Of a DNA stretch of 29,674 bases, positions 4,279 to 24,511 are shown in pieces. The position numbers and the translations under genes are program-made. Under the pieces are notes generated by a model. That model was not told where the DNA came from. It ran no database searches and was given only the letters and a program-made list of their open reading frames with translations. How positions within the stretch are numbered: position 1 is the stretch's first letter; every line of letters begins with the position of its first letter. The stretch spans positions 1 to 29,674 of the forward strand of contig CAKUGH010000014.1 in NCBI GenBank assembly GCA_934654605.1, in the 5' to 3' direction. The DNA is from an uncultured Collinsella sp. (GTDB taxonomy: Bacteria; Actinomycetota; Coriobacteriia; Coriobacteriales; Coriobacteriaceae).

Positions 4279-4330
4279 GGGCTGCGGCCGGCACCGCATT
4301 TTCCTATCACAAACCATAGCTTTTACCTTG

Positions 4331-4357
4331 GGCTTCGCCTGCGTGCGGGGCCTTTTT
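4331..4357 (+). terminator. Rho-independent terminator after the ABC1 kinase gene
   Basis: GGCTTCGC (4331-4338) pairs with GCGGGGCC (4345-4352), including two G-T wobbles, with a 6-base loop and a TTTTT run at 4353-4357. It separates the kinase transcript from the riboswitch-controlled transcript that begins just downstream. Confidence 0.6.
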
Positions 4358-4360
4358 GCG

Positions 4361-4369
4361 TGCTACCAT
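4361..4369 (+). promoter_or_regulatory. Possible extended -10 promoter for the riboswitch transcript
   Basis: TGCTACCAT fits an extended -10 (TGnTAnnnT) about 25 bases upstream of the cobalamin aptamer and directly after the terminator. Similar TGCTA-type sequences precede other genes here (18205, 21962, 23249). No convincing -35 is visible. Confidence 0.35.
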
Positions 4370-4393
4370 ATTGACGGTAATAATCGATGGCCT

Positions 4394-4566
4394 AGATGGT
4401 GGTGCGGAGACGCACGAATGCGCGGTTTTCCTGCGCGTTTGGGAGAATCGGGGTGCAAGTCCCCGGCTGTACCAGTAACCGTAATTCCTCTTGGTCCGGG
4501 ACGCACGCGTCGCAGATCGGACGGCGCGCCCGGGTCGTTAAGGTTAAGTCGGATCGCCTCCCATCT
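4394..4566 (+). promoter_or_regulatory. Cobalamin (adenosylcobalamin-type) riboswitch aptamer
   Basis: Family landmarks occur in order: a closing stem AGATGG (4394-4399) with CCATCT (4561-4566), a GC hairpin near 4419-4437, the GGGAGAATCGGGGTGCAAGT core at 4441-4460 with its CCCCGGCTG partner strand, CCAGTAACCGTAA (4472-4484), and the B12 box AAGTCGGATCGCCTCCC (4546-4562). No T-tract hairpin follows before the gene, so control is probably translational, by masking the ribosome site. Cobalamin riboswitches normally repress uptake or synthesis genes when B12 is plentiful. Here the aptamer precedes two transcobalamin-like surface proteins. Confidence 0.88.
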
Positions 4567-4708
4567 TGTACGCGGCTGCGGCGTACGCTGCTGGCACGCG
4601 TTGGGCTCTGGAAGGAAGGGGGCCCCGATGGGGGTACTCAAGCGCGATATGCGCGACGACGTGGGGCAGCCGTTGGGCAATGCTCCAAGTTCAGACAATA
4701 GGAGACAA

Positions 4709-7700
4709 ATGGATATGTTTGAGGACGAGCGCCAGCGCGCCTCGTGGCGTCGTCATGGGGCGATCGCACGCGGCGTAGCCAAGCGCGGTCTGGTGGCGTT
4801 TTTGGCCTTTGCCATGGCCTTTGGCACCACGCCGGCCCAGATGTGGGCCGAAGGCGCCGAGGGCATTGCCGAGGCCATGGCCCAGGCTGCGACGGCCGGC
4901 GAGGGCGCTGCAGCTGACGATAACGCTGCGGCCGATGCTGACTCGAATGGCGCCGCTGCCGAGGACGGCGCGGCTATCGGTGACACCGCTGCGAAAGCTG
5001 CAGGCAACGATAGCGCAACGGCCGATGGTGCCGCCGGCGCCGAGAACGCCGCGGCAGTAGCGTCCGTCGCTTCGGAGCAGGGCGAGGCAAAGGCCGCCGC
5101 CTCCGCCACGACGCTTACCAGCGAGGCTAAGGTCTACATCCAGGATTCCAAAGATAAGGACAGTTCTTGGTCCAATAAGTCCGGCGCGCTTAAAGCTGGC
5201 GACACGCTTTGGGCCAACATGTACGATGAGGTCGAGACCGAGGATTACTGGGGCGACCCTACGACCGAGACCAAATCGATTGCCAACCCCGGCACCTGGA
5301 ACTATACCTGGCTCGCAGCAGATGCCAAGGGCTACAGTACGGCTGACTATACTCAGGAACTGGGTCATGAGCAGTCGCTTGTTATCACGGGCGAGATGGC
5401 CGGCAAGTACATCATCTGCAAGGTTACGGTCGACGGCAAGGACTACTACGCTCCGGCATCTACGTATGATGGTTCGTTCAACAGCAACATCATCCCTGGC
5501 CCCGTGTTGGGCGCCGGGCAGATGGAGCTCAATAGCGTCAAGCTAAGCAGCGACATGCCTAGCATAGGCGACACCCTTACGGCGACTCCATATGTAAGCT
5601 ATTCGCAGCAGGCCCCCGCTGATGCCAAGGTCACCTACACCTGGTCCGCATCTACCTCGCAGTACTCGGGCTTTACCAAGATCGAGGGCGAGACGGGCGC
5701 TACGCTTACGGTGACCGATAACCTTGAAGGCAAGTACATTAAAGTTGAGGCCACTGCTGGCGTCAATACGGTAAACAAGACCACCTCCAGCAAGGTCAAG
5801 CAGGCCGGCGCAGTCGAGATCTCGGCCGTGTCCATCATCAACACCAAGGACAACACGAGCGTCTTTACGGTGGGCGATACCGCCCAGGCTCGCGCTAAGG
5901 AGAAGGGCGCCTCGACGTTTATCGACGCGGACAAGCTCAACTTCCAGTGGCAGTGCTCTGACACCAAGAGTGGCACGTATGCCGACATTGCGGGTGCCAC
6001 GGGTGAGACCCTCGAGCTTACCGACGCTTTGGGTGGCAAGTACCTCAAGTGCAAGGTGTCCTCGAAGATTGGCTCTTCGAGCTTGACCAACTCGACGGGC
6101 GCTCTCGTTGCTGCTGCCGGTTCAATTAATGTCACGAGCGTGACTATGAGCCCGACTTCGGGCAAAGTCGAGGTTGGTTCTACGATTACGGCGACCGCCA
6201 AGGCGGGTTCCACCGACGTCACCGCCGATTCGCATGTCACGTGGCAGTGGTATAAGGGCACCTCGAACTACGCGAGCTCGTGCAACACGCCTATCGAGGG
6301 TGAGACCGGTAATACCCTGACGGTGACCGCCGCCCTTAAGGGCTGCTACGTCGTGGCCAAGGCCAACGGCGGCTATGGCGAGCAGAAGCCCTACTATGCG
6401 GCGGGTCCTGTCTCCGTCGCTGGCCAAGTTGAGCTTTACGACGTGCAGTTCGAGGGCTCTCCCGCCACCAACGGCGTACGTGTGGGTGATACGCTCAAGA
6501 CTAAGGTGCGCAAAAAGGACGGCTCCAACTATCACTATATCGACCGCACCGATAACGTGACCTACCAGTGGCAGTATGCAAACAGCAGCTCGAGCTACGA
6601 CTCCGCCTATACCGATATCCCCGGTGCTACCGAGGCCGCCTATACCGTTGACGCCGCCTATGCCGGCAAGTACCTGCGCGTGAAGGTGACGAGCGAAAAT
6701 ACCGTCTCCAGCACGCAGAAGAAGAGCTCCTACGGCGGCACGCAGTCCGTTGCCCCGCTCGGCCCCGTGACGCTTAAGGGCCAGTACAAGCTGGCGGGCA
6801 TTGAGCTTGCCAATAAGAACGTTGTGCTCAGCGTGGGTTCAAAGATCACGCCGAGTGTGCAGGTTCCGGGTAGCTGGTCGGGCTCGACCAAGGACGTGCC
6901 CGACGATGCCGAGCTCACCATGGCGTGGTATGCCAAGGGCGAGGGCGATGCCGATTGGACCGAGCTCACCGACGGCATCGATAAGACCGATGGCAGCCTG
7001 ACCATTTCGGACGCGCTTGTTGGCAAGCGCATCAAAGTTACGGCGAGCGCCCTCGACAACACGGTTGAATGGGTTTCGTCCGATAGCGTCACCACGGCGG
7101 GGGAGTACAACCTGCTGCGCGTGATCGCCAACCCGCAGATCAATAGCGATTCGGTCCATCTCGTTTCGGGCGACGGCGTCAAGGCGACAGTGCAGGCCAA
7201 GCGCGCTGACGGTTCGGCCACCAACGGTATCGACGTCACCGGTCAGGCGACTGTTGCCTGGTATGCGGCGGACGATGCGAAGGCTCCGGAGGCCGACTGG
7301 ACGCTGCTGTCCGATATGTCGGGCGCCGAGGCGACGGTCTCGGCATCTGCTGCTGGCAAGTATCTGAAGGCTGTTGCCACGAGCGGCAGCTCGACGGTCG
7401 AGCTCGTCTCCGCCAACAAGGTTATCGCCGCGGGCTCGCTTGAGGCTGCAGTCCAAAAGCTCAACGATGCCAATAAGCAGATTGTTGTTGACTACAGCGC
7501 CAAGGGTGGCAACGTCAATGATGCGCTGAAGGCGCAGCTTGCCGATCTGGGATTTACCGACGTTGACGTTAAAGTCTCCGAGGGCGGCGTGCTCTTTGGG
7601 GCAAAGGACGCCAAGGCCACGGTCGGTATCTCCGACGCTCAGGATAAGACCAACGGCAATGTGACGTTCTTCTACATTGACCCCAACGACTACACCGGTT

Positions 7701-10700
7701 ACAACATCGACGGTCTGCGTAGCGCCGATGTGATGTTTGAGCTGTCGCGCGATGGCAAGACCGAGCATTACCAGCCCAACAAGTCGGTGCAGGTTGCTTG
7801 GGACGAGGCTAAACTGCAAGACCTTCTTGACGGAGCCGCCGAATCCCTGCAGATTGGCTACGCGGCGGGCGAGTCCGCCGATGGCGTGACCCAAAATGTC
7901 ACGCTTCCGTACAAGGCGGGTTCCGCAAAGAAATTCTCTGTTGAATGGACAAGCTCCGACACCGAGCGCCTGTTTGTTTCTGGTTATAGCTGGGAAGATA
8001 AGACGGGTAAGGTTTCGCGCGCATCGAGCGATCGCGATGTGACGCTGACCGCCAAGGTTACGGTTACGAGCGGCGACATCAAGCTTACCGGCTCGCACGA
8101 CTTCACCGTGACCGTCAAGGGCGATCCCGAGAAGGTCGCCGCCGACAAGAAGGCGCTGCAGGAGAAGGTCGATGCGGCCTTTACCTACGACAACATCAAG
8201 TACTCCGGCACCGACGCGGTCGCCAATAAGGACGGCCTAACCGCCGACCTGCAGATGCCGCGCACGAGCACGCTCAATATCGACGGCAAGTACTACAAGG
8301 TTGAGTACTCCGCCAGCACCGATGACATCACGTTTAACGGTTACAAGGGCACGGTCTATCAGCCGCTGCCTGGCACCGAGGCAGCGAAGACCAAGATCAC
8401 CCTCACGGTGACCGACAAGTCGAACGCCGAGGTCACGGCAAGCAAGACCCTCGACTTTGCGATTGCTCCGCAGGACCAGGGCGAGCTCGACGCCGAGCTG
8501 TTCCACCTGAGCCTTGCAAAGTCAACATTCTCTCAGGGAATTCTTGACGGGCAGGATGCGTCCAATGTAACGGGGAACTTGCATGCGCCGTTGAAGGTGT
8601 ACGGTCAGGGATATGCGGTTAACTGGTGCTATTCCTCTGAAGAGGCTGCTGGCCACTACGGCTTCGTGTTCAGCGAGCTCTCCGGCGGCACGGAGAACAC
8701 CTATCGTTTGCTCAAGTCGAGCAAACCGAGTGTTATCGCGCATGAGAACCTTATCCTCACTCAGCCCGAATACAACACGAAAGTCACGATTAGCGGCCGT
8801 CTGAAGAGTGAGCGTTTTGCCCGTTATGCCGAGCTCTATCCCGACAATTCGGACTACGCGGTACTTGCCGGCTTGGATGTTTCTGCGACGGTAAACGTCA
8901 AGGGAACGACGGGGCTCGACAACCCGAACGAGGGCAAGACCATTACGGTGACGGCCAAGGTCACGGGCGTTTCCGCAAGTGACGCCGGCGGCAACTACAC
9001 CGAGCAATCGGTGGTGCCCTTGACCGAGCTTACGCTTCCCGCCGACGAAGACACGACGGCCGAGTCGGTGCTCGAGCAGCTTATGACGGCTGCCGGTTGT
9101 ACGAACCTCGAAGCAAATGCATGGGGTCTTACGAGTGCGACGATGCCCGATGGCCGCGTGCTGAGCACAACGAGCGCCGCGCCGTACAGCTACTGGTCGT
9201 TCTTTGTAAACAATGGGTATGCGAGCGTCGGTGCCCCGAGCTATTTCCTTAAGAACGGCGATTGCGTCGAGTTCCGTTATGTTAAGGGTGACGGCACGCA
9301 GAAGCCCTCGACGGCTCCTGCTACCAATCCCGGAACGGAGCACCCCGATGTCGATGCGGCATGGAATGGTTTTGCGAACGGTGGCTCGGGATCCTCGACG
9401 GACGCCCTTACGCCTACAACAAAGACCGATACGCCTTCTTGGGCACTTAATCTTCTGACCGAAGAGCAGCAGAAGGCAGGTGCAAATTTCTCTGCGTCTG
9501 ACCCCATTGCCGCGAACGGAAAGGTATACCTTGTCACGGGTGCATCGGTGTGGAATGGAAAGACGTGGAATGCGGTCCTCAACGAGGTTGACCCCGAGAC
9601 GGGTTCCGTCGTGCGATCGCTTGAGCTTGGCTCTTCCATGGATAGCACCTGCCGTCCCGTTATTGCGCAGGGCATCATCCTGGTTCCGCTTTCGGGCGGC
9701 TATCTGCAGGCTGTTTCGGCAAAGACGTTTGAGACGCTTTGGTATTCCGATGCGTTTACGAAGCAGAACCTGTCTTCGTTGACCGTTGACGGCGACTACG
9801 TCTATATCAACACCCTTGATTATTGGTCTGGCGATAACGTACAAAACGGTACGGTCAGGCGCATCAATATTCACACGGGCGCCATCGCCGGTAGCGTCTC
9901 CGTCGCTGACGGAGGTTACTACTGGTCTGGCGGCCTGATGGTAAATGGCTACTATGTCGTTGGCGGAGATTTTGGCCAGGTGCGCGTATATTCCGCCGAT
10001 TTGTCAAAGCTTGTTGGTTCGATTAAGCTGTCCGGCGGCAATATTCGTTCGGCACTCGTTCTTCATGACGGCTTTGTATATGCGGTCACGCGCGACGATG
10101 GTACGCTGCACAAGCTGACCATTGGTTCGGATGGTTCCGTTACCGAGGCTGCGAAGGTGCAGTTTGCCGCATACTCGACTTCGACTCCCGTTTTCAGTGG
10201 TAAGTATGCTTTTATTGGCGGGGCAACCGCGAACAATTGGAAGTCTATGGCTAAGGCTAAGGCTAAGGCCAAGGCTAAGGCTACGGCTAAGGGCCTGCTT
10301 TCAATTATTGACCTCTCCGATATGAGTGTGAGGCAGATTACGAAGGCCGATGGCGAAGATCTTGGCTTTGAGTCCAAGGGCACGCCACTCGTCTCAACAC
10401 ATGATGGCGAGACGTACGTATATTTCACCTTGAACGGCGCCAAGGGCAATTGGCCTAACTACACTACCGGCGGTGGCGTGTACATGTACAAGCTGGGCGA
10501 TGCCGAGGCAACCGAGGTGTTCGTTCCCGGTTCTGGATATGCCAACTATTGCATGGCTTCGGTTGTCTGCGATCAGTTCGGCAATCTGTATTACACCAAC
10601 GATTCCGGCCACTTGTTCTGCGTGAAGTCTCAGTCCCATCGCGTCAAGTTTGATGCTCAGGGCGGCTCTGCGACTGGCGATCAGACGCCTGCTTCCGGTT

Positions 10701-11248
10701 CGACCGTTGCCAAGCCGGCGGATCCCACGCGCGATGGTTACACCTTTGCCGGTTGGTACACCGATGAGGCTTACACCAAGGCGTATGACTTTAGCGTTGC
10801 GGTGACGGCTGATATGACGCTGTATGCCAAGTGGGTCAAGAATGCTGTTAACCCTGGTGGTAACGGCGGCTCTGGTTCCAATGGCGGCTCGGGTAATGCC
10901 GGTGCTGGTTCTGGCTCCGGTAACGGCACAAACGGCCAGCAGACTGGCGGTGCTGTTGCTCCGGGTCAGAAGCCGGTGTCGTCGACCACGACCAAGACCA
11001 AGGACGACAAGGATTCCAAGAAGGATTCCGACAAGTCCGACAAGAAGGACAGTAAGAAGTCTGATAAGAAGTCCAGCAAGTCCAGCTCCAAGTCCGATAC
11101 GGGCTCGGCCGCCGCGACTACCGCCAAGAAGTCCGCTGAGGCTCCCGCGCAGCAGTCTGGCTTCAATCCGCTCGCCATCGTCGGCGTTGCGGCTGGCGTG
11201 ATCGGTCTTGCCGTCATCGCCGTGTTCGTATTCACCAAGCGTCGGTAG
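4709..11248 (+). CDS. Giant secreted surface protein: Ig-like repeats, transcobalamin-like DUF4430 domain, beta-propeller, C-terminal membrane anchor
   Basis: A 2179-residue protein. In order: signal peptide (hydrophobic core about residues 28-40, then AQMWA); Ala-rich low-complexity segment (47-134); about seven Ig-like repeats (135-910), each with a W in the middle and a G(K/C)Y-(I/L/V)-K type end; a mixed region; an atrophied-Ig-like (aBig) module (about 1147-1252); a DUF4430/transcobalamin-C-like domain (about 1410-1526, with YWSFFVNNGYASVGAPSYFL and KNGDCVEFRYV); a PQQ-like beta-propeller (about 1574-1970); one InlB/Flg_new repeat (about 1977-2044, FAGWYTDEAY...LYAKWV); a Gly/Ser then Lys/Ser/Asp linker; and a C-terminal membrane helix with the tail FTKRR. 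No LPXTG is seen. The start at 4709 follows AGGAG (4700-4704); an in-frame ATG at 4628 with GGAAGGAAGG upstream is an alternative (2206 residues). The cobalamin riboswitch upstream suggests corrinoid capture; this is inferred, not shown. Confidence 0.88.
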   Translation: MDMFEDERQRASWRRHGAIARGVAKRGLVAFLAFAMAFGTTPAQMWAEGAEGIAEAMAQAATAGEGAAADDNAAADADSNGAAAEDGAAIGDTAAKAAGNDSATADGAAGAENAAAVASVASEQGEAKAAASATTLTSEAKVYIQDSKDKDSSWSNKSGALKAGDTLWANMYDEVETEDYWGDPTTETKSIANPGTWNYTWLAADAKGYSTADYTQELGHEQSLVITGEMAGKYIICKVTVDGKDYYAPASTYDGSFNSNIIPGPVLGAGQMELNSVKLSSDMPSIGDTLTATPYVSYSQQAPADAKVTYTWSASTSQYSGFTKIEGETGATLTVTDNLEGKYIKVEATAGVNTVNKTTSSKVKQAGAVEISAVSIINTKDNTSVFTVGDTAQARAKEKGASTFIDADKLNFQWQCSDTKSGTYADIAGATGETLELTDALGGKYLKCKVSSKIGSSSLTNSTGALVAAAGSINVTSVTMSPTSGKVEVGSTITATAKAGSTDVTADSHVTWQWYKGTSNYASSCNTPIEGETGNTLTVTAALKGCYVVAKANGGYGEQKPYYAAGPVSVAGQVELYDVQFEGSPATNGVRVGDTLKTKVRKKDGSNYHYIDRTDNVTYQWQYANSSSSYDSAYTDIPGATEAAYTVDAAYAGKYLRVKVTSENTVSSTQKKSSYGGTQSVAPLGPVTLKGQYKLAGIELANKNVVLSVGSKITPSVQVPGSWSGSTKDVPDDAELTMAWYAKGEGDADWTELTDGIDKTDGSLTISDALVGKRIKVTASALDNTVEWVSSDSVTTAGEYNLLRVIANPQINSDSVHLVSGDGVKATVQAKRADGSATNGIDVTGQATVAWYAADDAKAPEADWTLLSDMSGAEATVSASAAGKYLKAVATSGSSTVELVSANKVIAAGSLEAAVQKLNDANKQIVVDYSAKGGNVNDALKAQLADLGFTDVDVKVSEGGVLFGAKDAKATVGISDAQDKTNGNVTFFYIDPNDYTGYNIDGLRSADVMFELSRDGKTEHYQPNKSVQVAWDEAKLQDLLDGAAESLQIGYAAGESADGVTQNVTLPYKAGSAKKFSVEWTSSDTERLFVSGYSWEDKTGKVSRASSDRDVTLTAKVTVTSGDIKLTGSHDFTVTVKGDPEKVAADKKALQEKVDAAFTYDNIKYSGTDAVANKDGLTADLQMPRTSTLNIDGKYYKVEYSASTDDITFNGYKGTVYQPLPGTEAAKTKITLTVTDKSNAEVTASKTLDFAIAPQDQGELDAELFHLSLAKSTFSQGILDGQDASNVTGNLHAPLKVYGQGYAVNWCYSSEEAAGHYGFVFSELSGGTENTYRLLKSSKPSVIAHENLILTQPEYNTKVTISGRLKSERFARYAELYPDNSDYAVLAGLDVSATVNVKGTTGLDNPNEGKTITVTAKVTGVSASDAGGNYTEQSVVPLTELTLPADEDTTAESVLEQLMTAAGCTNLEANAWGLTSATMPDGRVLSTTSAAPYSYWSFFVNNGYASVGAPSYFLKNGDCVEFRYVKGDGTQKPSTAPATNPGTEHPDVDAAWNGFANGGSGSSTDALTPTTKTDTPSWALNLLTEEQQKAGANFSASDPIAANGKVYLVTGASVWNGKTWNAVLNEVDPETGSVVRSLELGSSMDSTCRPVIAQGIILVPLSGGYLQAVSAKTFETLWYSDAFTKQNLSSLTVDGDYVYINTLDYWSGDNVQNGTVRRINIHTGAIAGSVSVADGGYYWSGGLMVNGYYVVGGDFGQVRVYSADLSKLVGSIKLSGGNIRSALVLHDGFVYAVTRDDGTLHKLTIGSDGSVTEAAKVQFAAYSTSTPVFSGKYAFIGGATANNWKSMAKAKAKAKAKATAKGLLSIIDLSDMSVRQITKADGEDLGFESKGTPLVSTHDGETYVYFTLNGAKGNWPNYTTGGGVYMYKLGDAEATEVFVPGSGYANYCMASVVCDQFGNLYYTNDSGHLFCVKSQSHRVKFDAQGGSATGDQTPASGSTVAKPADPTRDGYTFAGWYTDEAYTKAYDFSVAVTADMTLYAKWVKNAVNPGGNGGSGSNGGSGNAGAGSGSGNGTNGQQTGGAVAPGQKPVSSTTTKTKDDKDSKKDSDKSDKKDSKKSDKKSSKSSSKSDTGSAAATTAKKSAEAPAQQSGFNPLAIVGVAAGVIGLAVIAVFVFTKRR
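10250..10291 (+). repeat. In-frame GCTAAG hexamer tandem repeat (7 units)
   Basis: Seven hexamers, five of them exact GCTAAG (fourth GCCAAG, sixth GCTACG), encode an Ala-Lys run inside the beta-propeller region of the giant surface protein. The unit is a multiple of three, so slippage would change loop length without shifting the frame. Confidence 0.9.
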
Positions 11249-11257
11249 GTGAGGGCT

Positions 11258-12154
11258 GTGTCCAATAAGCCTCAGGACGCCGAGTCCAAGCAGCCCGACT
11301 CGTCGTTCATCCAGCTCGACGACACTGTGCAAAAGGGCGCCGCTTCGGCGGCGTCCGCCCCTCGGCGCAAGGCGCTTGTTGGCGCTCTGACGGCCGTCTG
11401 CATCGTGTTGATTGTCGTCTCGCTGGGCTTTGTTCGCCCTTCCGTCAGCGGTGCCTGGTCCATCGATTGGATTGTCGAGACCGTGGCGGGGGAGAGTGTC
11501 GTTGCCAAGGAAGCGTCGGTTTCCGGCTCGACTACCGCTTCGGGTAAGACTGGAGCCAAGGGCTCAAAATCTTCGGATGATGCGAGCTCTGAGTCCAAGG
11601 ATCCGGACGAATCCGACTCCAAGGACGATTCCGAGTCTTCGGACAAGGACTCGAAAGAGAAGAAGTCCGAAGGCAAGGACGGCAAGAAGTCCGATGGCAA
11701 ATCCGCCGGGCAGAGTTCCGGTTCCACTGGTGGACCTGGTTCTTCTGGCGGCGCCTCGTCGGGCGGCGGCTCAACCACTGACGGTGCGCCTGTCTCTGGT
11801 GGCAGCAGCGCCTCTGCAGGCAGCCACGGCGGCTCGCAGCAGCCTGGCTACATTACCGTGACGGTCTCGGTCACGTCGAGTGCCGTGGGCAATCCTGTCT
11901 CGTCTGGCGGCACGTTCACCTTTAACGAGGGTGCCACTCCCTATGACGCACTGTGCGCGCTGGGCCTTTCTATTAACGCGCATGGCTCGTCGTATGGCAC
12001 GTATGTTGCCGCGATCGGCGGCTTGGCCGAGAAAGAGCACGGCGGCACAAGCGGCTGGATGTACTCCGTCAACGGCGTAACGCCCAATACGGCCTGCAGC
12101 AACTACGTTCTCAAAAACGGTGACAACGTAGTCTGGTATTACGTTACAGGCTAG
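11258..12154 (+). CDS. Membrane-anchored DUF4430 (transcobalamin-like) protein
   Basis: A 298-residue protein with three parts: a short cytosolic N-terminus and one membrane segment (ALVGALTAVCIVLIVVSLGF, about 37-56); a long Ser/Asp/Lys- then Gly/Ser-rich spacer (about 80-195) suited to crossing the wall; and a C-terminal DUF4430 domain (about 200-298) with the typical TPYDAL, SGWMYSVNGVTPN, NYVLKNGDNVVWYYV pattern. DUF4430 is related to the C-terminal cobalamin-capping domain of transcobalamin and intrinsic factor. The gene starts about 10 bases after the giant surface protein stop, so it shares its riboswitch-controlled transcript, and ends at a strong terminator. The start is a GTG at 11258 with AGGTGAGG just upstream; the in-frame GTG at 11249 is an alternative. 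A role as a second cobalamin-binding or hand-over protein is inferred. Confidence 0.85.
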   Translation: MSNKPQDAESKQPDSSFIQLDDTVQKGAASAASAPRRKALVGALTAVCIVLIVVSLGFVRPSVSGAWSIDWIVETVAGESVVAKEASVSGSTTASGKTGAKGSKSSDDASSESKDPDESDSKDDSESSDKDSKEKKSEGKDGKKSDGKSAGQSSGSTGGPGSSGGASSGGGSTTDGAPVSGGSSASAGSHGGSQQPGYITVTVSVTSSAVGNPVSSGGTFTFNEGATPYDALCALGLSINAHGSSYGTYVAAIGGLAEKEHGGTSGWMYSVNGVTPNTACSNYVLKNGDNVVWYYVTG

Positions 12155-12175
12155 AGGCCTCGACATAACACGCCA

Positions 12176-12215
12176 AACGGGCGGTTCGGACCAACATCCG
12201 AGCCGCCCGTTTTCA
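12176..12215 (+). terminator. Rho-independent terminator of the riboswitch operon
   Basis: AACGGGCGGTTCGGA (12176-12190) pairs with TCCGAGCCGCCCGTT (12197-12211) over 15 bp with one G-T wobble and a 6-base loop, then TT. It lies 21 bases after the stop of the second DUF4430 gene. Confidence 0.85.
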
Positions 12216-12221
12216 TGCGAA

Positions 12222-12514
12222 TGGGACGCCGTTTCCCAATCGAGGCTCAATCGGAAATTGCATCCCACTCTGAAGGCGAATTCCGGGACACACTTTCCGC
12301 ATCAGCATCCATTGGGAAAGCGTATCCCATTCTGGACATCGATAATGGGATGCGCTTTCCGTTTCGGCGTCCGCGGGAAACTGCGTCCCGTTCTGGCGAC
12401 CGATTCCGGGACACACTTTCCGCTAGGACGGCGTTGCGGAAGCTACATCCCATTCTGAGGCTGCAATCTGGGATGCGCTTTCCGGAGCAGCGCCCCCGGG
12501 GAAACTATGTCTCA
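12222..12514. repeat. Phased array of ten 15-bp arms in alternating orientation, about 31-bp period
   Basis: Arms in one orientation resemble GGAAAGCGTATCCCA and start at 12253, 12315, 12376, 12438 and 12500. Arms in the other orientation resemble TGGGATGCGCTTTCC and start at 12222, 12284, 12346, 12407 and 12469. Start-to-start distances are 31 bases in every case but one (30). Between arms lie 15-16 bases of poorly conserved sequence; after each GGAAA-type arm the gap usually opens with TTCTG. The array sits between two converging genes, after both terminators. A 123-codon open frame across it rotates through the repeats and does not look like a real gene. Function is unknown. Confidence 0.85.
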
Positions 12515-12565
12515 TTCCGACGCCGTAGCCCACCTCGTACGCCTTCCCCGGCAGGCTCTGCAAAC

Positions 12566-12598
12566 AAAAAGCCGGTTGGAACATGAATTCCAACCGGC
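12566..12598 (-). terminator. Rho-independent terminator of the GtrA genes
   Basis: Read leftward, GCCGGTTGGAA (complement of 12588-12598) pairs with TTCCAACCGGC (complement of 12571-12581) in a perfect 11-bp stem with a 6-base loop. A T run follows (complement of 12566-12570). It closes the leftward transcript 26 bases after the stop at 12625. Confidence 0.85.
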
Positions 12599-12624
12599 TG
12601 CGAAGCGAGATTATGTTGGGTCGT

Positions 12625-13032
12625 CTACGACTGTGCGCCCTCGAGGAAAAAGCGACGGCTAAAGTAGTTGTACCAGGTGACCAGGAACGTAGCGATGGCC
12701 TTCATGGCCTGGTAGCCGATGCTCAAAAACGTGACGCCCACAAACATGTACAGGTCGTTGAGGCCCAGGCCAATCACCGACAGGATGGTGAAGATCGTGA
12801 ACTCGCGCTTGCGGCTCATGCCCTCGCGGTGGTCGAACACGTACTTCATGCTGAGCCAGTAGTTGACCACGACGGACGTGATGAACGAGATCGTGGTGCT
12901 CATCAAAAAGTCGAGGTGGAACAGCTCGACAAGCGCAATGAGCATGCCCCAGTCGATGCCAAAGGAAATAAGACCCACGACAGCGAACTTGAGGAACTGC
13001 TTGGTATGAGGTTGTGCCAGTGCCTTGCGCAC
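12625..13032 (-). CDS. GtrA-family membrane protein (copy 1)
   Basis: A 135-residue protein with four hydrophobic segments, the hallmark of the GtrA family: FLKFAVVGLISFGIDWGMLIAL, MSTTISFITSVVVNYWLSM, FTIFTILSVIGLGLNDLYMF and the region ending VTWYNYFSRRFFLEG. GtrA-like proteins are small polytopic membrane proteins linked to moving lipid-bound sugars for cell-envelope glycans. The start is GTG at 13032, with GGAT about 10 bases upstream. It is a paralogue of the next leftward gene (13252-13647): both share a KYVF..EGMSR+REF segment and the C-terminal FLEG. No glycosyltransferase gene is adjacent, so the glycan involved is unknown. Confidence 0.88.
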   Translation of the reverse strand: MRKALAQPHTKQFLKFAVVGLISFGIDWGMLIALVELFHLDFLMSTTISFITSVVVNYWLSMKYVFDHREGMSRKREFTIFTILSVIGLGLNDLYMFVGVTFLSIGYQAMKAIATFLVTWYNYFSRRFFLEGAQS

Positions 13033-13183
13033 GTAATCACATCCAATGCGTTGATGAATCGAGCAGAGGATACTTTAGAGCTTTTGCAAGGGAAACGTAA
13101 GGGCTTTGCCAAGAACTATACGAACTCGTCAAATTTTCAAGAGGCAATCCGCAAACGTGCCAAATTTGCCCGTAAACGAACGG

Positions 13184-22634: not shown

Positions 22635-22653
22635 TGCGGGAGAGGAGATGTCC

Positions 22654-23229
22654 ATGAAGCCGTTGCTGCTGCATGCTTGCTGTGCGCCGTGCTCGCTTGA
22701 GCCGGTTCGCCTGCTGTGCGAGGAAGGGTTTGAGCCCACGATTTGCTGGACCAACCCCAATATTCAACCGCGCGATGAATGGCAGCGCCGCCTGGACGAA
22801 CTGCGCCGGTGGTGTGCTGATGGCGACATCGAGCTTATCGAGGCAGGCGAGGACCGCGAGCGCTGGGAGGCCGGTGTGGCCCCGTTGGGCGCCGATCGAC
22901 CCCGTCGCTGTCGTGCGTGCTATGCCCTGCGTCTGGCCGAGGCATGCCGTGTGGCCAAGGATCGCGGGTTCGAATATGTGGGTACGACGCTCGCCGTCTC
23001 GCCGTATCAGCTGTTCGATACCTGTAATGACGTGCTTGAGCGCTTGGCAGCGGCACATGGGCTCACCCCGGTCATTCGCGATTTTCGCCCGTATTACCCC
23101 GAGGCCACGCGTCGTTCGCGCGAGCTTGGCATGTATCGGCAGAACTACTGTGGTTGCCGCTTCTCGGCTGTCGAGGCGGCCATGGACCGCGCCCGCATCC
23201 GCGACGAGCGTAAAGCCGCCAAAAAGTAG
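22654..23229 (+). CDS. queH: Epoxyqueuosine reductase QueH
   Basis: A 191-residue protein with the QueH (former DUF208) signature: LLLHACCAPCS at the N-terminus (adjacent Cys9-Cys10, Cys13), RRCRACYALRL (Cys86, Cys89) and YCGCRFS (Cys166, Cys168). The cysteines bind an Fe-S cluster and metal in this family. QueH reduces epoxyqueuosine to queuosine at position 34 of GUN-anticodon tRNAs, the last step of the pathway. The ATG at 22654 is chosen because GAGAGGAG (22640-22647) is 6 bases upstream; the in-frame ATG at 22648 touches that site. queA follows 64 bases later on the same strand, and tgt is 5 kb downstream, so all three named genes act on the same tRNA base. Confidence 0.95.
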   Translation: MKPLLLHACCAPCSLEPVRLLCEEGFEPTICWTNPNIQPRDEWQRRLDELRRWCADGDIELIEAGEDRERWEAGVAPLGADRPRRCRACYALRLAEACRVAKDRGFEYVGTTLAVSPYQLFDTCNDVLERLAAAHGLTPVIRDFRPYYPEATRRSRELGMYRQNYCGCRFSAVEAAMDRARIRDERKAAKK

Positions 23230-23248
23230 TTCATTTGGGACGTTAGCC

Positions 23249-23257
23249 TGCTAGGAT
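23249..23257 (+). promoter_or_regulatory. Possible extended -10 promoter for queA
   Basis: TGCTAGGAT in the queH-queA gap resembles the extended -10 sequences seen upstream of other genes in this window. It would give a leader of about 30 bases with AAGGAG at 23280-23285. Confidence 0.35.
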
Positions 23258-23293
23258 GTAGAGCGGACTTTAGCTATATAAGGAGAATCCGAC

Positions 23294-24511
23294 GTGTCTA
23301 TGCGTACCGATGATTTTGACTATAACCTTCCTGAGGAACTGATTGCCCAGGCTCCTGCCGAGCCGCGTGACTCCTGCCGCCTGCTGGTGGTGGATCGCAA
23401 AGGCTCCCAGGCAGGAACGCCGCTGGAGCATGGCGGCACCGTCGAGCACCGCATCTTCCGCGACATCATCGACTATATCGAGCCGGGCGATGTGCTCGTC
23501 ATCAACAAGACGCGCGTGATGCCGGCCCGCCTGATCGGTCGCAAGTCGGGCTCGGGTGGCGTGGTCGAGACGCTGCTGCTCAAGCGCCGCGAGGATGTTG
23601 ACCCACTGGGTCACGTTTGGGAGTGCCTGGTCAAGCCGGGCAAGCGCCTAAAGCCCGGTGCTCAGATTGAGTATCGCGCCGGTGGCGCACATGCGCCCGA
23701 GGGCGCGCCCGTGGTGTTGACAGCTGAGGTCATCGACTTTGTCACCGATAGCCGCGGTGGCCGCCTGGTGCGCTTTGAGCCGGCCGGTTGCAATGCCGCC
23801 GGCGAGCCGCGCACGCTCGACGAGGCCATTCACGCCGCCGGTCACGTGCCGCTGCCGCCCTACATTACCGATTACGAGGGCGATCCCGAGAAGTATCAGA
23901 CCGTCTACGCCATGAAGGAGGAGCATTCGGCCGCTGCTCCCACGGCGGGCCTGCATTTCACGCCCGAGCTCATGGCCGCTATTGAGGCCAAGGGTGCGAA
24001 GTTTGCCGCCGTCGAGCTCGAGGTGGGCATCGATACCTTCCGTCTGGTGGAGGAGGATGACCCCACGCAGCACGTGATGCACACCGAGCGCTACCACGTG
24101 TCGCAGGAGGTTGTCGACGCCGTGCACAAGGCCAAGGCCGAGGGGCATCGCGTAATCGCCGTCGGTACCACCGCGGTGCGCTCGCTCGAGAGCGCGTTTG
24201 ACGCGGACGCGCCGGTGGCTGACCCGGCCGTGACGGCGCGCTATTTTGAGGGTCGTGAGGACGGGGCCGACACGCTCGGTCGCGGTGACATCGTGGTGCG
24301 CGAGAACGCCACGACGCAGCTCTACCTCATGCCCGGTTCGACCTATCACGTGGTCGATGCGCTCATCACGAACTTCCACGTGCCGCGCTCCACGCTCATG
24401 ATGCTCGTGAGTGCGCTTGCCACCCGCGACCAGATCATGGATGCCTACGCCGCCGCCATCGAAGAGCGCTACCGCTTCTTCAGCTTTGGCGACGCGATGC
24501 TCATTCAGTAG
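23294..24511 (+). CDS. queA: QueA, S-adenosylmethionine:tRNA ribosyltransferase-isomerase
   Basis: A 405-residue protein. Diagnostic blocks are FDYNLPEELIAQ (8-19), RDSCRLLVV, NKTRVMPARLIGRK, APTAGLHFT and NFHVPRSTLMMLVSA. QueA transfers and isomerises the ribosyl group of SAM onto preQ1 in tRNA to give epoxyqueuosine, which QueH then reduces. It is about 55-60 residues longer than typical QueA (about 345); the extra sequence lies mainly in a middle segment (VVLTAEVIDF...GCNAAGEPRT) and near residues 300-325. The GTG at 23294 is the likely start because AGGAG (23281-23285) is 8 bases away; the ATG at 23300 is an alternative. The TAG stop overlaps the first base of a hairpin (24511). Confidence 0.96.
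   Translation: MSMRTDDFDYNLPEELIAQAPAEPRDSCRLLVVDRKGSQAGTPLEHGGTVEHRIFRDIIDYIEPGDVLVINKTRVMPARLIGRKSGSGGVVETLLLKRREDVDPLGHVWECLVKPGKRLKPGAQIEYRAGGAHAPEGAPVVLTAEVIDFVTDSRGGRLVRFEPAGCNAAGEPRTLDEAIHAAGHVPLPPYITDYEGDPEKYQTVYAMKEEHSAAAPTAGLHFTPELMAAIEAKGAKFAAVELEVGIDTFRLVEEDDPTQHVMHTERYHVSQEVVDAVHKAKAEGHRVIAVGTTAVRSLESAFDADAPVADPAVTARYFEGREDGADTLGRGDIVVRENATTQLYLMPGSTYHVVDALITNFHVPRSTLMMLVSALATRDQIMDAYAAAIEERYRFFSFGDAMLIQ

Follow-up and report, generated by a model that had tools for sequence, protein, structure and literature searches.

The 29,674-nucleotide contig CAKUGH010000014.1 of an uncultured Collinsella sp. (hereafter the window, meaning the whole stretch of DNA analysed) carries a conserved leader RNA of the cobalamin riboswitch type, followed by two adjacent genes for DUF4430 surface proteins, one giant and one small. 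We consider it likely, with a probability of about 0.82, that these form a vitamin B12-repressed corrinoid-capture operon, in which corrinoid binding and the direction of regulation are predicted. A capture system of this kind had been proposed from the letters of the window without database searches (the sequence-only reading). Its cobalamin-type leader and two DUF4430 proteins were recovered, and the uptake role was backed by the linkage of such operons to a CbrT-like energy-coupling factor (ECF) importer in relatives, while a beta-propeller in the giant protein and the importer itself had been overlooked. The features of the operon are as follows.

4388..4568, +: cobalamin-type riboswitch aptamer, with stem P1 formed by 4394-4399 paired with 4561-4566
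4603..4630, +: conserved block GGGCTCTGG, Shine-Dalgarno-like GGAAGGAAGG and start codon ATG 4628, the likely expression platform
4628..11248, +: giant surface protein, 2206 aa, with signal-peptide-like start, immunoglobulin (Ig)-like stalk, DUF4430, beta-propeller, List_Bact repeat, charged linker and C-terminal membrane anchor
7835..8119, +: atrophied bacterial Ig domain aBig_2 (PF20578) in the stalk, 43.2 bits (cut-off 27)
9026..9289, +: DUF4430 of the giant (transcobalamin beta-domain-like)
9347..10633, +: beta-propeller, probably eight-bladed, after the giant's DUF4430
10640..10831, +: Listeria-Bacteroides repeat (PF09479), Pfam 73.1 bits
11160..11245, +: C-terminal hydrophobic stretch and KRR tail of the giant, likely membrane anchor, from the translation by eye
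11249..12154, +: small protein, 301 aa, with N-end, one hydrophobic segment, Ser/Asp/Lys-rich linker and C-terminal DUF4430
about 11369-11437, +: hydrophobic segment of the small protein, by eye
11942..12145, +: DUF4430 of the small protein
about 12175-12212, +: terminator-like hairpin with four U at its end, -31 kcal/mol, z -6.8

The leader RNA and its likely expression platform

We aligned the leader of the window with 17 leaders from relatives. Over the 44 base pairs of this 18-leader alignment 96.5% of the cells were paired, and the value fell to 34.5-42.3% when the partner columns were slid by 1 to 3. In 24 of the 44 pairs at least one sequence had both partners changed, compared with a mean of 8.9 in shuffled alignments, and none of 500 shuffles reached 24. 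The aptamer structure is conserved, with compensatory changes, among the 18 leaders, and the limits of 4394-4566 given by the sequence-only reading coincide exactly with its P1 strands. A model built from these leaders (R1) matched the window at 4388-4568 with 191 bits, the window itself being in the training set.

No Rfam family matched anywhere in the window at the gathering threshold. In a relaxed Rfam scan of 4280-4760, tabulated with one lower-scoring match of the same clan omitted, RF01689 (AdoCbl-II) matched at 4433-4510 with 31.5 bits (E = 1.5e-5), below its curated gathering score of 36.5. RF01689 belongs with RF00174 to the cobalamin riboswitch clan CL00101. Because its score is below the gathering one, we call the leader cobalamin-type and not a member of an Rfam family. 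It is predicted to bind cobalamin and to change expression.

The block GGGCTCTGG (with variations), the purine-rich Shine-Dalgarno-like stretch and the start codon were kept in 15 aligned leaders with spacers of differing length, the start codon being present in all 15 (14 ATG and 1 GTG). A consensus scan listed no terminator-like site on the + strand between the aptamer and the start. Given this conservation and the lack of a listed terminator-like site before the start, the leader would act at the level of translation and the giant most likely starts at ATG 4628 (2206 aa), not at the alternative in-frame ATG 4709 (2179 aa). Folding of the single leader sequence did not settle how the Shine-Dalgarno region would be masked. 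At the other end of the operon, the terminator expected after both genes corresponds to the hairpin at about 12175-12212, although this was absent from the consensus terminator scan and its tail has four U only.

The giant and small DUF4430 proteins

The small gene begins with a GTG immediately after the stop codon of the giant gene, and both proteins exceeded the Pfam cut-off of 23.8 bits for DUF4430 (PF14478), as had been anticipated. The small protein scored 65.4 bits and the giant 31.1 to 34.5 bits, the latter over positions 39-71 of the 72-position profile only. The signal, linker and anchor of the giant were judged from its translation by eye, without a predictor. Its C-terminal end looks like a membrane anchor, and the giant is probably membrane-anchored there and not simply secreted. 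The sequence-only reading had treated it as a secreted protein with a DUF4430 domain and had missed the upstream start at ATG 4628, the propeller and the likely anchor.

A structure model of the small protein's DUF4430, matched to solved structures, had a transcobalamin-type fold and lay near beta domains solved with bound B12, among them 5np4 with cyanocobalamin. The domain of the giant was assigned from its Pfam match and from the same order of secondary-structure elements in a model of the giant's head (8969-10633), namely a helix at 31-41, a hairpin at 45-50/53-58 and strands at 74-80 and 100-106. The model had a predicted template modelling score (pTM) of 0.91, which is suggestive for the relative orientation of the domains. 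The domain sequence matched nothing in the PDB at E = 10 and the DUF4430 profile gave weak matches only (3u7z, E = 0.27; transcobalamin-2, E = 1.7), so that the fold assignment rests on structure models. These support a shared transcobalamin-type fold for the DUF4430 domains of both proteins, in agreement with the fold first proposed for them.

Neither window protein had a Pfam match to an alpha/alpha toroid at E = 0.1, and neither is classed here as a transcobalamin. They also differ from transcobalamin, intrinsic factor and haptocorrin in their low identity (15-21%), in the propeller beside the giant's domain and in being probably membrane-anchored.

The best structural matches of the propeller, among the matches listed, were YxaL, Cake8, Tako8 and BamB. 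Tako8 is described as eight-bladed in that listing, and YxaL, Cake8 and BamB are presumably eight-bladed as well. BtuG2 (3DSM) was absent among 60 of the 72 sequence matches of the propeller and likewise from the structural matches listed, and kinship of the propeller with BtuG was unsupported by these nearest matches. Across relatives, DUF4430 plus the propeller formed the conserved part of the giant and the stalk was highly variable; Arg, Gln and aromatic positions were conserved in the propeller. A KA-repeat run at about 10247-10291 of the window appeared as a low-complexity propeller loop modelled at low confidence, exceeding that of the nearest relative, L061, by four residues.

Operons of relatives and the importer

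Using the alignment of this conserved core, a profile search yielded 191 encoding places, the best 80 of which were examined. These 80 loci came from Coriobacteriia (Collinsella, Enorma, Slackia, Gordonibacter, Raoultibacter, Adlercreutzia, Eggerthella, Olsenella, Atopobium, Tractidigestivibacter and others) and some Clostridia. R1, searched over all of them at E up to 1, gave 52 rows, one per locus, of which 49 were at the start of the core gene and that of L153 was very weak. RF00174 was tried on 28 loci, comprising 25 with an upstream side but no R1 row together with L153, L178 and L191; L122, L156 and L185, where the frame reaches the locus edge, were left out. It matched 15 genomes, 14 over the cut-off, and all 14 matches were at the core gene start (within 1.1 kb). 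In 14 of the 28 loci tried, a cobalamin riboswitch over the Rfam cut-off thus occupies the same position, independently of our own models, and R1 and RF00174 together placed an aptamer at the core gene in 63 of the 80 loci.

A second model, R2, was built from eight leaders, one of which (L137) was tried against Rfam, and searched in 26 loci. It added ten loci (L137, L146, L150, L154, L163, L164, L170, L171, L197 and L199), bringing the total to 73 of 80. R2 also re-found, at the same places, the RF00174-positive aptamers of L162, L173, L192 and L195, all outside its training, which connects the R2 leader with the cobalamin family. Searched against whole genomes, R2 matched a single place in 13 of 17 and had no match in either of the two Collinsella genomes included. 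Among the remaining loci, no aptamer was found at L166 and L186, L122, L156 and L185 reach the 5' edge of the locus and were given no judgement, L191 has its aptamer 5.7 kb upstream of the core gene, and at L178 (the same place as L093) it lies on the other strand and heads another DUF4430 gene. This last aptamer (L093:1334-1474, 29.8 bits, sub-threshold) diverges from the propeller gene and precedes a 299-aa DUF4430+DUF5648 protein (1490-2389).

The leaders of the Olsenella/Tractidigestivibacter type (L137:6107-6265, L146:5415-5574, L150:8996-9155, L154:6011-6169, L163:6819-6970, L164:6801-6993, L170:5915-6073 and L197:7438-7613) formed a strongly conserved structured RNA with the P1 stem GAGGGCA/TGCCCTC. 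The one tried against Rfam, L137, gave nothing at E = 1. We regard this type as probably a diverged cobalamin-type aptamer beyond the reach of Rfam.

A small DUF4430 gene was found downstream by phmmer in 72 of the 80 loci, and the giants of relatives had up to three DUF4430 domains. Genes for an EcfT-like protein, a fused double ATPase (EcfA-EcfA') and an S component followed on the same strand in 37 of the 80 loci; these amount to 37 of the 52 loci outside Collinsella and Enorma, where several others (e.g. L130, L153 and L178) end too early to show the cassette. All 28 Collinsella/Enorma loci were free of it, and 26 of them had the aptamer, the other two being cut off. With Pfam, ABC_tran was matched twice in each of L087 and L103 and S-component families in L087, L103 and L085, while the EcfT candidates of L087 and L103 had no Pfam match and were named by position. 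EcfT, two ATPase halves and the S component are encoded together in these operons. A profile of the S component (15 rows, two of them the identical protein of L085 and L152) matched 6fnp_A in the PDB with E = 5e-15, the only other match at E = 1 being 4hzu_S (6e-4), which makes CbrT the closest relative by sequence. 6FNP is the ECF-CbrT of Lactobacillus delbrueckii, described as importing cobalamin and cobinamide at the expense of ATP (PMC5997447).

Within the window no transporter family turned up among the proteins scanned with Pfam, consistent with the earlier statement that no BtuF/BtuCD or ECF gene lies there. The same S component was nevertheless present in 42 of 43 genus genomes. In five (G008, G016, G017, G035 and G093) it lay on the contig of the aptamer, about 3 kb further on, and in the seven other genomes whose S region was examined it stood beside T and A, unlinked to the capture genes; in Collinsella the importer is mostly elsewhere in the genome. 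In four of these genomes (G008, G016, G017 and G035) we found a short operon form, with 100-160 bases between the aptamer and the start of a DUF4430 match and with the S component at about 3 kb, which leaves no room for a giant in between. This form suggests that the small DUF4430 protein and the ECF importer may be the minimal unit.

Relatives of the small protein were found in 49 of 58 genomes. A plain RF00174 search with stricter filters had a match in 27 of the 58 relatives, 13 over the cut-off, and R1 matched 41 of 42 genus genomes at one place each. In 31 of the 35 genomes G001-G035, the aptamer and the small-protein match were on one contig; in G006 and G010 they were on separate contigs and the giant runs to or near a contig end. 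FecCD (BtuC-type) permeases were absent at E = 1e-10 from 7 of 11 genus genomes tested. G032 had two FecCD genes compared with none or one in the ten others, a single case in which a BtuC-type route may possibly have replaced the ECF route.

Two side observations concern B12 more widely. RF00174 exceeded its cut-off beside a different long frame in two genus genomes (48.2 and 46.8 bits; frames of 1558 and 1578 aa), with the aptamer at L118:8299-8425 before the frame at 8441-13117, and at G006:C13:46020-46146 in L119. The L118 frame carries FIVAR and has its C-terminal tail in common with the giant, and the two frames are possibly a second B12-regulated surface protein. In the window itself, a QueH-family gene adjoins a queuosine synthesis gene (22648-24511); QueH spares the B12-dependent QueG.

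Proposed corrinoid capture and its alternatives

We propose that when intracellular cobalamin is scarce, the leader would leave the Shine-Dalgarno region open and both surface proteins would be made. The giant, anchored at its C-end, would raise its conserved head on the variable Ig-like stalk; the head, with its transcobalamin-type DUF4430 and beta-propeller, would capture corrinoid, and the small membrane protein, with its DUF4430 on a flexible linker, would relay it at the membrane to a CbrT-type ECF importer. C. aerofaciens is listed among bacteria that need B12 for growth (PMC6593275).

Several results weigh against this reading or reduce the counts behind it. The Rfam score of the window's own leader is under threshold, as described above. 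The locus counts by R1 and R2 are partly circular because leaders of this kind served to train both: at least 12 of the 18 R1 training leaders appear to lie in the examined loci, making about a quarter of the 49 placements re-finds, and eight of the ten loci added by R2 are its own training set, leaving L171 and L199 as new finds. The structural matches of the giant's head were filled by propeller rows, so its DUF4430 has no structural alignment of its own, and the toroid, which supplies much of the binding site of transcobalamin, had no Pfam match in either window protein. At the seven unlinked Collinsella ECF regions no convincing aptamer was found (R1 at most 13.1 bits), so that no co-regulation of the importer with the capture genes is visible there. 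In G021 the region examined holds the small gene but no giant, and the sole R1 match of this genome is weak (22 bits) and on another contig. Lastly, PF02607, the MetH-type cap domain, was found in 30 of 35 genus genomes; G005, G015, G030, G033 and G034 lack it and keep a DUF4430-protein match, while G032 has it without a small-protein match, S component or R1 aptamer. We looked for a clean joint loss of the capture genes and the B12 enzymes and, given these six genomes, found none; judged by MetH alone the distribution therefore gives no clean signature of B12 use.

Taken with these points, capture remains the likely reading, and the mode of binding in the head may be a clamp, the propeller alone or DUF4430 alone. 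A bolder reading, to which we give about one chance in three, is a new kind of two-domain corrinoid clamp, a bacterial counterpart of transcobalamin with the propeller in the place of the alpha/alpha toroid. The corrinoid would lie between the DUF4430 lid and a propeller face and be handed to the membrane-tethered DUF4430 protein and then to the CbrT-type importer, with capture under the B12 switch.

It is rather unlikely that the propeller binds corrinoid by itself while the DUF4430 domains merely hold it or pass the ligand on. The propeller of Bacteroides BtuG is described as a cell-surface binder of B12 and cobinamide (PMC6143338, PMC10404256), and the conserved Arg, Gln and aromatic positions of the giant's propeller would suit such a role, but BtuG2 is described as seven-bladed and was absent among 60 of the 72 sequence matches, the nearest matches among those listed being YxaL, Cake8, Tako8 and BamB, and the DUF4430 fold is close to solved B12-bound beta domains including 5np4. 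We give still less credence to adhesins or polysaccharide-binding surface proteins that are merely B12-regulated, with DUF4430 as a spacer or a binder of another small ligand. Ig-like stalks, List_Bact repeats and FIVAR are common in surface adhesins; the first two occur in the window and FIVAR in relatives, and the stalk varies greatly. Sugar binding has also been proposed for other proteins of the wider SLBB superfamily (PMC1796856). Against this, the conserved part is DUF4430 plus the propeller and not the stalk, a CbrT-like importer lies within the operon in 37 of 80 loci, and 73 of 80 have a cobalamin-type aptamer at the gene. Many of the genera found are known from the gut or mouth, which together with the long protruding stalk and the described ability of BtuG to take B12 from intrinsic factor (PMC6143338) would fit the stripping of B12 from, or docking of, host or foreign carriers (intrinsic factor, haptocorrin or other bacteria's binders) instead of the capture of free corrinoid, but we saw nothing in the sequence to suggest a protein partner, direct binding of B12 by the fold is the simpler explanation, and this alternative is very improbable.

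The role of such proteins had already been predicted. Burroughs et al. (2007) named a transcobalamin-like SLBB clade with B12 scavenging as its likely role, and described surface proteins with DUF4430-type domains, fusions with Ig and beta-propeller domains (Clostridium gi 28210494) and operons in which a second SLBB paralogue and CbiO/CbiQ-like genes occur (PMC1796856). The word riboswitch is absent from the main text of that paper. As far as the literature searched goes, our analysis adds the switch, with an aptamer at 73 of 80 loci, a leader missed by Rfam, the CbrT kinship of the S component, the spread across Coriobacteriia and the mostly unlinked importer in Collinsella. An experimental test of a bacterial DUF4430 protein was not found in the literature searched.

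The importers of relatives have an S component that is closest by sequence to that of ECF-CbrT and that Collinsella has too, but they are linked to dedicated surface DUF4430 proteins, with T, A and S together. Like BtuG and BtuH of Bacteroides, the window proteins would be surface proteins dedicated to B12 capture, and BtuG too is a propeller. BtuG is, however, described as a seven-bladed lipoprotein lid on the TonB-dependent BtuB (PMC6143338, PMC10404256), whereas the giant's propeller is nearest to eight-bladed ones among the matches listed and is combined with DUF4430 and an ECF importer. If true, the clamp system would be a Gram-positive counterpart of BtuG-BtuB. A 2020 review notes that many Gram-positive gut bacteria have BtuFCD homologues but lack BtuB, and that variants of the known machinery are likely at work in some of them (PMC6977713). 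The operon described here bears on how Gram-positive gut bacteria may gather B12 ahead of the membrane importer.

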